Shown here: positions 49,879-52,681 of the stretch, piece by piece
How the letters are laid out: each line of letters begins with the position of its first letter
Position numbering within the stretch: the first letter of the stretch is position 1
Source: Haloterrigena alkaliphila
Lineage (GTDB): Archaea > Halobacteriota > Halobacteria > Halobacteriales > Natrialbaceae
DNA: 64,000 nt
Direction of reading: 5' to 3'
Assembly: GCF_017352155.2 (NCBI RefSeq)
Contig: NZ_CP071462.1
Coordinates: forward strand, 2,728,001 to 2,792,000
Program-made: the position numbers and the translations under genes
The notes under the pieces: generated by a model
Database searches by the model: none
Told to the model about the DNA's origin: nothing
The model's input: only the letters and a program-made list of their open reading frames with translations

Positions 49879-50880
49879 CTAGATTGTCTTAGCTTCATCG
49901 GTGCGTCGATACTCGCCGTCGTCGACCGCGACGACCCCCTCACGCCGCAGGTGATCGAGGTGGGCGAACGCCTCGCCGGGGCCGTGGACGATGTGGATTC
50001 CCGACAGCTCACCGAACAGGTGATCACTGACCGTCCACGCGTCGGCCGGTCCGTGTTCGGACAGCACGTCGAGGATCTCGTCGGTTCGATCGCGGTGGTG
50101 GTCGATGATCTCTCGGGCTCGCCCGGTCGGGTCGTCGATCGGGTCCCGGTGGCCCGGCCAGACGCGGTCGTACTCGCGGTCGGCGAGCCACTCGAGCGTC
50201 TCGAGGTAGCGCTCGAGGGGACGCTCGACGCGGACGTCGGCACCGCCGACGTTGGGCGTATATACCGGCAGGAGGGCGTCGCCGACGAACGCCGCCGAAG
50301 CGCCGGCGGCGTCGCCGTTTCCATCCCCTCGCTCCGTTCCCGGCGCCTCGCTGATCTCGAAACAACAGTGTCCGGCCGCGTGCCCGGGCGTATGCACCGC
50401 CTCGAGTCGTCGGCCGCCGACCTCGAGCACCGTCCCGTCCTCGATCGGCGTCACGTCCGCCGGTTCGCCCACGAGGTGGCTCGCGTCGTCGAAGACGGCC
50501 AGCAGTTCGGCCTGCTTCGCTTCGGGGACGCCCCATTCGTCGAGGAGAAACTGCCGGCGGTCCTCCATCGCCGCCACCGCGTCGGGATCGTCCTCGACGA
50601 GGGGCGCGTCGGCCTCGTGGACGTACACCGTCGCGTCGCTCTCGGCCTGAATCTCGCCGGCGAGGCCGGCGTGGTCGACGTGGAAGTGCGTGAGCACGAT
50701 GTCGTCGACGTCCGCGAACGAGTATCCCCGTTCGGCCAGCCCCTCTCGCAGGTCCTCGCGGACGGCCGGCGTCGAGAGGCCGGTGTCGACGAGTGCGAGG
50801 TCATCGCCGTCGTCATCATCGAGCACGTACGCGTTGTTCCGGCCCTCGAACTCCTCGTTCCCCAGCCGAATTCGGTCCAT
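49879..50880 (-). CDS. Metallo-beta-lactamase-fold hydrolase with C-terminal winged helix
   Basis: A 333-residue hydrolase. The zinc motif LTHFHVDHAGLAGE lies near residue 64, VHTPGHAAGHCCFEIS near 160 and the AFVGDALL and WPGHRDP ligands follow. The C-terminal 70 residues look like a winged helix (LDVLSEHGPADAWTVSDHLF then EAFAHLDHLRREGVVAVDDG). This two-domain type is frequent in archaea and the substrate is unknown. ATG 50880 is the start, with a GAATTACAAG box upstream. Confidence 0.85.
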   Translation of the reverse strand: MDRIRLGNEEFEGRNNAYVLDDDDGDDLALVDTGLSTPAVREDLREGLAERGYSFADVDDIVLTHFHVDHAGLAGEIQAESDATVYVHEADAPLVEDDPDAVAAMEDRRQFLLDEWGVPEAKQAELLAVFDDASHLVGEPADVTPIEDGTVLEVGGRRLEAVHTPGHAAGHCCFEISEAPGTERGDGNGDAAGASAAFVGDALLPVYTPNVGGADVRVERPLERYLETLEWLADREYDRVWPGHRDPIDDPTGRAREIIDHHRDRTDEILDVLSEHGPADAWTVSDHLFGELSGIHIVHGPGEAFAHLDHLRREGVVAVDDGEYRRTDEAKTI

Positions 50881-50964
50881 GTCGCCACCCCACACGCCGT
50901 CGGCTTGTAATTCACCCGAAAGCGGACGGTCGCATTAGAATACGAGCGTTCGTTCCTTAGCTTT

Positions 50965-51248
50965 CGAGTTCGGCCCGCAGCAACTGGTTGACGTCGCCGG
51001 GGTCGGCGCTGCCGCCGGTCAGTTTTGCCACCTTTTTCTCGTCGGGTTGCTCGCTAGGCTCGCAACCACTCTCTGTTCACGGGCGCGTAGCGCCCGTTCA
51101 CATGGTCAGCGGGACCTCCGGTCCCGCTCGACTCGAAAAATCTGGACCAAAAAGCCGAACGCTCACTTCGTTCGCGTTCGGTTCTTATCCCTCGAGTTCG
51201 GCCCGCAGCAACTGGTTGACGTCGCCCGGATCGGCGCTGCCGCCGGTC
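50965..51248. repeat. Duplicated 3' end of gatB flanking triloop hairpins
   Basis: A 56-base stretch at 50965-51020 matches 51193-51248 (inside the true end of gatB) at 54 of 56 positions, and both carry a stop soon after, so the copy encodes a parallel C-terminus (NQLLRAELES versus NQLLRAELEG). The copy lies about 170 bases beyond the real gatB stop. Between them are four inverted repeats: 51045-51067 (6-bp arms), 51080-51096 (7-bp arms, loop GTA), 51108-51128 (9-bp arms, loop TCC) and 51155-51181 (7-bp arms). The arrangement resembles the residue of an insertion or recombination at the gene end. Confidence 0.85.
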
Positions 51249-52681
51249 TTTTGCATCACCTGGCCGACGAGGAAGTTGATCGCGCCGTCGTCGCCCGACT
51301 CGTAGTCGTCGACGGCGTCCGGGTTCTCGTCGATCGCCTCGACGACGGCCTGCTGGACCTCGTCCTCGTCGGTCTTGCCCAATCCTTCTTCGGCGACGAC
51401 CTCGTCGGGCGTCCGGCCGTCGTCGAGCATCGACCGCAGAACGGTCTCGCGGGCGTTTTTCGCCGTGATCTCGTCGTCGGCGACGAGTTCGACGAGGCGG
51501 GAGATCTCCTCGAGGCGCCCCTCGATGTCCGTAATTTCCATGTCGCGGTAGTTGAGTTCGCCCAGCAGGTTGTCCGCGACCCACGTCGCCGCCAGATCGG
51601 GGTCGAACTCGCTCGCGACGTCCTCGTAGAAGTCCGCGACCTGTTTGGTCGAGGTGAGCTTCGAGGCAGCCTCCTCGTTCAGACTGTATTCGTCCTGGAA
51701 GCGCTCGCGTCGAGCGGAGGGGAGTTCCGGAATCGAAATCTCGTCCGTCCAGTGGGAGACCCGCAGCGGCGGCAGATCGGCCTCCTCGAAGTAGCGGTAG
51801 TCCTTCTCCTCTTCCTTCGAGCGCATCGAGACGGTGATCCCGCGGGACTCGTCCCAGTGACGGGTCTCCTGCTCGACCGCGCGGCCGCGCTGGATGGCGT
51901 TCTTCTGTCGGGTCTCCTCGTAGGCCAGAGCCTTCTGGGCGCCCTTGTGACTCGAGATGTTCTTGACCTCGGTGCGGTTAGCGGCCGCCAGCGCCTCCTC
52001 GCCGATCTCGGTGATATCGTCGCTCTCGATCTCCGCTTCGGGGATAATCGAGAGGTTGGCGTCGATCCGCAGGCTGCCGTCGCGTTCGGCGTCGAAAACG
52101 CCCAGGTACTCGAGGACCTCTTCGAGTTCGGCGAGAAAGGCCCGCACCTCGTCGGGACTGCGGAAGTCCGGGGCGGTGACGATCTCCATCAGCGGCGTCC
52201 CCGCGCGGTTGTAGTCGACGAGGGTGTAGTCGGCCGAATCGATGCCGCCACCGCCGCCGACGTGCTGGAGGCTGCCCGGGTCCTCCTCCAAGTGGGCGCG
52301 CTCGATCGTGACGGTTCGACGCTCGCCCTCGACGGCGACCTCGAGGTCGCCGTCGGCGCAGATCGGCTCGTCGTACTGGGTGATCTGGAAGTTCTTGGGC
52401 AGGTCGGGGTAGTAGTAGTTCTTCCGGTGGAACCGGGTCTCCTCGGGGATCTCGGCGTCGATCGCCTTCCCGATCTTGACGGCGGCCTCGACGGCGGCCT
52501 CGTTGAGTACGGGGAGGGCACCGGGGAGGCCGAGACAGACCGGGCAGACGTTCTCGTTGGGCTCGTCGGTCTGGTCGGTCGAACAGCCACAGAAGATCTT
52601 CGTGTCGGTCTCCAGCTGGACGTGGACCTCGAGGCCGATGACGGTCACGAGGTCGCCCTGCTGGACGGTCTGGGCAGTCAT
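51185..52681 (-). CDS. gatB: Asp-tRNA(Asn)/Glu-tRNA(Gln) amidotransferase subunit B
   Basis: Binds the mis-charged tRNA and directs transamidation so that asparaginyl- or glutaminyl-tRNA is made. The 498-residue protein begins MTAQTVQQGDLVTVIGLEVH and has VQLETDTKIFCGC, CPVCLGLPGALPVLNEAAVE, FDAERDGSLRIDANLS and the C-terminal tail domain ending GGSADPGDVNQLLRAELEG. The two CxxC-type clusters form the zinc site. Normal length for archaeal GatB. The 3' end is duplicated downstream. Confidence 0.95.
   Translation of the reverse strand: MTAQTVQQGDLVTVIGLEVHVQLETDTKIFCGCSTDQTDEPNENVCPVCLGLPGALPVLNEAAVEAAVKIGKAIDAEIPEETRFHRKNYYYPDLPKNFQITQYDEPICADGDLEVAVEGERRTVTIERAHLEEDPGSLQHVGGGGGIDSADYTLVDYNRAGTPLMEIVTAPDFRSPDEVRAFLAELEEVLEYLGVFDAERDGSLRIDANLSIIPEAEIESDDITEIGEEALAAANRTEVKNISSHKGAQKALAYEETRQKNAIQRGRAVEQETRHWDESRGITVSMRSKEEEKDYRYFEEADLPPLRVSHWTDEISIPELPSARRERFQDEYSLNEEAASKLTSTKQVADFYEDVASEFDPDLAATWVADNLLGELNYRDMEITDIEGRLEEISRLVELVADDEITAKNARETVLRSMLDDGRTPDEVVAEEGLGKTDEDEVQQAVVEAIDENPDAVDDYESGDDGAINFLVGQVMQKTGGSADPGDVNQLLRAELEG

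Follow-up and report, generated by a model that had tools for sequence, protein, structure and literature searches.

The gatB gene of Haloterrigena alkaliphila ends twice. In the stretch of 64,000 nucleotides analysed here (the window), the last bases of the gene recur beyond its stop codon, with inverted repeats between the two copies. What placed a second gene end there, and is gatB alone in having one? A preliminary description of the locus had suggested a small non-autonomous element, or a past integration and excision, of which only a trace was left.

A second gatB end in the window

The duplicate itself is real: positions 50965-51020 and 51193-51248 are identical at 54 of 56 bases, and a longer, weaker alignment (50946-51033 against 51174-51261) covers 88 bases at 85%. 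The window has 216 ends of ORFs that are 150 aa or longer, and gatB alone has a strong copy of its own last bases within 900 nt; one other end gives a weak match of 43 bases at 77%. In the reading direction of gatB, the active gene end (e) and its stop are followed by a terminator hairpin (t) with a T-run and by the 5' arm of a hairpin that we call X. Two perfect triloop hairpins come next, then the remainder of X, which ends in GACGAGAAAAAGGT, and finally the second gene end (e') with its own stop (Table 1). The repeated unit is larger than first described, and also includes the terminator hairpin (51155-51181) and both arms of X (about 51126-51148 and 51030-51044). The short motif GGTG is shared as microhomology at the gatB junction.

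Table 1. Features of the repeated gatB end in the window (filled loci are those in which gatB is accompanied by X and e')
Feature	Position	Strand	Basis
gatB, amidotransferase subunit B, 498 aa	51185..52681	-	ORF; Pfam GatB_N and GatB_Yqey
Active gatB 3' end (e), duplicated; stop 51185-51187	51185..51261	-	repeat alignment
Terminator hairpin (t), CCGAACGC...GCGTTCGG	51155..51181	-	equivalent position in other filled gatB loci
Terminator T-run, CTTTTTGG	51147..51154	-	sequence; predicted from the T-stretch motif of Haloferax (available text of PMC7237163)
Hairpin X 5' arm, GGTCCAGATTTTTCGAG	51126..51148	-	match of model R1, G000:C1:2779026-2779153
Triloop hairpin inside X, 51108-51116/51120-51128, 9 bp, loop TCC	51108..51128	.	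perfect inverted repeat
Second triloop hairpin inside X, 51079-51086/51090-51097, 8 bp, loop GTA	51079..51097	.	perfect inverted repeat
X inner stem and 3' arm, GGTTGC..GCAACCCGACGAGAAAAAGGT	51030..51067	-	sequence; covariation
Second gatB 3' end (e'); stop 50957-50959	50957..51029	-	repeat alignment
Bases past the e' stop, still like the start of t	50946..50956	-	alignment stops 11 nt past the stop

The stop codon in e' (minus strand, 50957-50959) and the perfect inverted repeats with three-base loops (8 bp around GTA, 9 bp around TCC) had also been pointed out, and both are present. The triloop hairpins are not, however, the conserved part of the spacer: they form an extra insert within X that the other filled gatB loci lack. 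A sequence resembling the one at 51108..51128 is found elsewhere in the genome. We rejected coding readthrough into e', which is in frame in the window's genome (G000) but not in G004, and whose frame is broken at some other genes. At 49879-50960 of the window we also observed that four congeners (G001-G003 and G005) hold more coding-looking sequence between gatB and the MBL-fold gene; neither of the genus's two filled species, G000 or G004, has it.

Filled and empty gatB loci

X and e' are present at 9 of the 49 gatB loci compared in the family: G000 and G004 in genus g1, G056, G073, G065 and G066 in g15, G080 in g16, and G102 and G105 in g23. Within its own genus, the window's arrangement is matched by G004 and missing from G001, G002, G003 and G005. 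The 49 exclude G056b and G101C2, each a second gatB copy within its genome, and G263, which belongs to another family. Counted as empty are G076 and both G101 loci, which were loosely flagged on coding matches of 18-26 bases, and also G005, G051 and G054, which have a terminator remnant behind gatB that in G054 includes the start of an X. A search with the e' copy gave a match in 120 of 125 family genomes, mostly to the gatB end proper. The distance from the gatB stop to e' is about 95-200 bases in eight of the nine filled loci.

A duplicate present in all relatives at equal divergence had been named as the outcome that would speak against an insertion; most relatives are without it, and unoccupied sites are found in close sisters of filled species (G070 for G073; G058 and G074 for G056; G061, G064 and G075 for G065). 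In these empty sisters the native flank lies directly behind gatB, while in the filled ones it lies behind e'. For example, G070 reads ...GAACTCGAGAGCTAA-TTGGCGGTTT, and the identical tail and flank stand behind e' in G073, where the working end reads ...GGAGTTAGAAGGGTAA and is followed by the terminator. The native tail GAACTCGA occurs in 38 of 40 empty ends and in 8 of 9 e' copies; among the nine active ends, only four have it and five are recoded. The earlier proposal, in which a small insertion rebuilt the gatB end and displaced the old one beyond itself, agrees with the empty sites, the native sequence behind e' and the recoded active end. At any single locus, though, gain and loss are inseparable, since a clean empty site would also be regained if the two ends recombined.

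The two gatB ends evolve in concert. Within a genome, the core of e is 91.4% identical to its own e', compared with 80.2% to the e' of other genomes, a difference reached in none of 100,000 permutations. Identity of the two ends declines next to X, as we would expect where conversion meets unlike sequence. The stop codon of e' is lost in G004 and G065. Over the gene as a whole, filled species of different genera are no more similar than filled and empty ones (filled-filled identities.904,.884,.862,.848,.884 and.852 against filled-empty.905,.884,.868,.848,.886 and.853). With these values we see no long transferred gatB tract and set aside a recent cross-genus transfer of one, so that either any exchange was short or the event is old.

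Outside the family, gatB of G263 is followed by two successive X, and Halosimplex salinum and Halorhabdus amylolytica have one each. In a separate set of 80 named gatB loci, nine were flagged, and five loci of four species remained after inspection; we dropped L273, L278 and L329 (short coding matches far from the end) and L327 (a 25-base tandem repeat without X). In L327, from a Halovenus MAG, it is the last 25 bases of gatB that are tandemly repeated right behind the stop. Two species carry gatB twice: Natrinema hispanicum DSM 18328 has both copies on one contig in opposite orientation, each with X (L261, L262), and Natronorubrum bangense has one on the chromosome and one on a plasmid, neither with X (L264, L265). 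The gatB unit of G080 holds about 650 bp of AT-richer DNA between terminator and X (L065, 3176-3580).

A structured hairpin at many gene ends

What had been taken for only a trace at gatB is a recurrent arrangement: a gene 3' end with its stop, terminator hairpin and T-run, then hairpin X, then a second gene 3' end followed by native flank. Many genes besides gatB have X together with a copy of their own end. In an alignment of 25 X, the imperfect stem has 94.7% of cells paired, and both sides have changed in 9 of 17 pairs. The covariation score is 0.238; shuffled alignments give 0.089 (0 of 500 reach the observed score), and slid versions stay at or below 0.05. Joint change is clearest between the two bases preceding AGATTTTT and the two that follow AAAAAGGT (CC/GG, CG/CG, GC/GC, GT/AC). 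Applied to single sequences, ViennaRNA refolds a nearly identical stem unaided, with z-scores weaker than -2.2 in two of five.

A covariance model of X (R1) matches 13 places in G000 and 12-19 in each of its five relatives, and at least 213 of 242 Halobacteria genomes have a match, with up to 20 candidates scored per genome. A simple pattern for the end of X, allowing two mismatches, was found in 74 of 125 family genomes. Of 30 loci retrieved in this way, 27 were testable, and in 21 of them X is followed by a duplicate of the end of the preceding gene, 88-100% identical; two of the pattern-search loci (L093 and L096) are gatB. One tRNA in the 30 loci led us to reject tRNA as the target, and a phage origin was rejected when a search returned no match.

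Pairs of X from the same gene in different species have a mean similarity of 0.754 (33 pairs), and pairs from different genes within a genome one of 0.675 (71 pairs), a difference seen in none of 2,000 permutations. Because X is on average closer to its orthologues than to the other X of its genome, recent transposition is not supported; rather, each gene seems to hold the descendants of one old event.

We compared X with several databases. Ten loci gave no Rfam match at the gathering score, and at a permissive threshold the window region gave one match, far below its gathering score. A plasmid search returned 16 records, none covering 80% of the query, and the best of these represent another subtype. 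At the loci inspected, we found X accompanied by no transposase, integrase or reverse transcriptase, and searches of open-access papers listed no such repeat or parallel.

These results bear on the idea that the gatB spacer is an integrase's work. If a larger element had been integrated at gatB by a tyrosine integrase and later deleted between its ends, a block of identity at both ends and a rebuilt gene end would be the expected geometry, and the available text of PMC8371274 describes archaeal att blocks of 40-50 bp and of more than 100 bp. We nevertheless judge such a remnant very improbable: an identical X family stands at many different genes, no integrase fits in the window's spacer, and none lies between the ends in any filled locus, the extra bases in G080 encoding one lipoprotein-like ORF of 134 aa that has no Pfam match.

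Several variants of X were seen. One subtype, TTTTTAGCGTAGATTTTT...AAAAAGGTAC, occurs on chromosomes and megaplasmids (L085, L107, L146, L126, and the plasmids L337, L338 and L339); a conserved stretch precedes it (about AGTACAGGCGGAGGCGTTACCGCTGCGG...GCACCC) and similar bases follow, about 180 nt in total, and none of these seven loci has a copied gene end. It may be a free-standing member of the family or a structured RNA. A second subtype, CTTTTTCATCGAAGTTTTT...AAAAAGTTCG, lies a few bases from the apparent stop codon of a convergent gene (L139, L151, L160, L174, L175, L176, L178, L181, L182), as if X were a terminator common to both genes. A third variant contains an extra hairpin module (GGTCTCT...GGTCAGCGAGAGC..GCTCTCGCCAGACAGATTTTT); since this is found at unrelated genes (L010, L135, L154, L169, L074), modules seem to be exchanged between X copies.

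Geometry of the duplication at other genes

We asked how often X in the genus is followed by a direct duplicate of the stretch upstream of it, starting at most 20 nt from the end of X with E of at most 1e-4. This was so for 31 of 66 matches. By the same test, duplicates numbered 0 of 66 when the upstream strand was inverted, 3 of 396 when loci were mismatched and 5 of 66 when sought at the opposite flank of X; on these controls we set aside a chance repeat. The other 35 matches have no duplicate by this strict test, and several of them are other subtypes. A looser E of 0.01 passed 40 of 66, some plainly unrelated, and we keep the strict count.

Such counts can be set against the view that X and the second gene end together form a selected regulatory unit, a two-way terminator or a 3' UTR that needs the copied end, with selection keeping the copies alike. 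Compensatory changes in the stem, a T-run on both strands, the subtype placed directly at the apparent stop of a convergent gene and the use of the same genes by several genera would all agree with a regulatory role. Yet those 35 matches do without the copy, many species lack it, and the second gatB end of G004 and of G065 has lost its stop codon; we regard the regulatory unit as improbable. A selected two-way terminator is possible for X alone, which leaves the copied end unexplained.

Gene names at loci other than the window (hisF, hisH, purH, ileS, sufS, etfA, thiolase, trk, dph6, rSAM, MBL) are presumed from C-terminal sequence or are working labels; the identities tested with Pfam are those of the window's gatB and its MBL-fold neighbor. 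The copied stretch begins 23-118 nt before the stop (leaving out L171, to which no gene stop was assigned). Its right junction is always the end of X, while the left point varies within the gene. Most genes have one copy start, much alike across species, and hisH, dph6 and the rSAM-labelled gene have two or three. The 5' boundary is variable as well: the second copy ends after the native tail in gatB, after the terminator in trk, where the duplication in G003 spans -89 to +32 of the stop and reaches the T-run, and inside X in L087 and L102. With such a variable boundary, tandem duplication fits too.

Clean or near-clean empty sites exist beyond gatB, at hisH, sufS, hisF, thiolase and trk. The working end of hisH has the tail CSRE* in three filled species, compared with CAEE*, CADE* or CAEA* in three empty ones, and empty species at trk already have the native terminator. 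Leftovers of a duplicate without X are found at hisH in G005 and dph6 in G002. At the other extreme, a gene at L197 (G039, contig C24, about 1110-1790) is followed by an array of five 124-bp units, almost identical, each made up of gene end, terminator and X, and paired and tripled units occur elsewhere.

The strongest rival to an insertion is replication slippage at a fixed hairpin. Here X would be an immobile part of the 3' UTR or terminator; slippage during replication, with re-annealing at a point further up the gene, would have duplicated gene end, terminator and X in tandem, and parts of this tandem would later have been lost. The junction that stays constant at the end of X while the left point moves between 23 and 118 nt before the stop (L171 again aside) is as slippage would have it, and so are the tandem arrays, the second copies that re-enter X (L087, L097, L102), the GGTG microhomology at the gatB junction and the signs of one old event per gene. 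Simple slippage, however, yields two identical native ends, and gatB and hisH combine a native second copy with an active end whose tail is not that of the genus. Moreover, one X family is common to unrelated genes, and X must therefore have spread. On balance we think slippage unlikely, but a serious candidate.

A proposed insertion behind the terminator

The best explanation that we have, and one to which we give about an even chance of being right, is that a small structured element was inserted behind the terminator and came to be flanked by direct copies of the gene end, and that conversion, expansion and loss followed. X would be a small, structured, non-coding haloarchaeal element whose insertion sites lie at gene 3' ends, past the terminator, and insertion would create the direct duplication of the gene end that flanks it. 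The upstream copy, with its stop and terminator, would become the working end, and the old end and native flank would be pushed past X. From then on the two ends would act as direct repeats: gene conversion may keep both alike, and unequal recombination may multiply the unit (up to five copies are seen) or delete X and leave an empty site. Homologous exchange could carry the unit between species.

Many parts of this account are seen directly. The arrangement recurs at many genes, the stem covaries, the duplicate starts where X ends and has the native flank behind it, and the two gene ends evolve in concert. Recoded active tails, empty sites, arrays and footprints of deletion are observed as well. 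For the insertion step, we infer that X arrived as a mobile element moved by an enzyme. Our analysis suggests that this family of tiny insertions is old.

We also considered a bolder reading, which we hold to be rather doubtful. X would be a class-wide, self-maintaining hairpin that acts at the 3' end of the transcript, copies the end of its gene and, with the copy serving as its homology arm, is converted, amplified, lost or passed from species to species. A route through the mRNA 3' end came into consideration because duplication at trk stops at the T-run of the terminator. If copying did proceed in this way, it would amount to RNA-guided targeting of gene ends with no enzyme encoded in the element.

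Comparison with known systems

The SMR and PATEs of Haloquadratum walsbyi are short, non-coding, palindromic and present in many copies, and have no transposase of their own; according to the accessible portion of PMC3119063, neither duplicates its target, and the targets of SMR are other mobile elements. Judged by that portion, X resembles them in being short, non-coding, palindromic, haloarchaeal, multi-copy and without its own transposase, and differs in that this subtype sits at gene ends with a duplication of tens of bases. As in SMR, the ends of X are inverted repeats (its arms pair) and it is too short to code; unlike SMR as described there, it comes with a target duplicate. PATEs derived from IS605 are defined by having neither terminal inverted repeat nor target duplication, whereas the arms of X pair and the duplicate is present.

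Elements of the IS1549/IS1634 type produce long direct repeats of variable length, 8-514 bp in the sections of PMC2266710 available to us. X has long, variable repeats in common with these sections' account of them, here 23-118 nt of gene end (without L171). These elements encode a transposase, while X encodes nothing. We know of no tie between IS1549/IS1634-type elements and gene ends. Tyrosine-integrase elements, as presented in the part of PMC8371274 consulted, have blocks of identity, a rebuilt working end on one side and the old end displaced to the other. The X unit shares with that picture the identity block at both boundaries, the rebuilt end and the displaced old end, and departs from it in having no integrase between the ends and many different protein genes as targets.

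In Haloferax, termination occurs at T stretches, sometimes with a hairpin, and the T stretch is the intergenic termination motif, according to the available text of PMC7237163. T-runs are likewise present at the candidate haloarchaeal intrinsic terminator of our loci. Diversity-generating retroelements also consist of a gene end, a hairpin and a second copy, with differences concentrated at template adenines. The gatB copies differ at two of 56 bases and no reverse transcriptase was seen; with no adenine bias, we set aside a retroelement of this type. Integron cassettes have attC sites that are imperfect hairpins with covarying arms, and form arrays of gene piece and hairpin; integrons have reportedly been found in archaea. 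The X units are similar in their imperfect covarying hairpin and their arrays, and dissimilar in that only a gene end is included and no integron integrase was seen. Compared by the descriptions in the portions of the papers cited, SMR and PATEs, IS1549/IS1634, integrase elements and Haloferax terminators each lack some feature of the X units, and none combines them all.

Conclusions

If the insertion reading is true, haloarchaea carry a repeat family, widespread among them, by which the ends of essential genes are shaped and the last codons of a working gene can be replaced. The essential genes affected are that of the amidotransferase and, by our own reading, tRNA synthetase, histidine and purine genes. 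A concrete question follows, namely what moves a hairpin of 70 bases to gene ends. The paired ends record insertion, conversion and loss, and the X loci are natural material with which to measure short-repeat recombination in haloarchaea.
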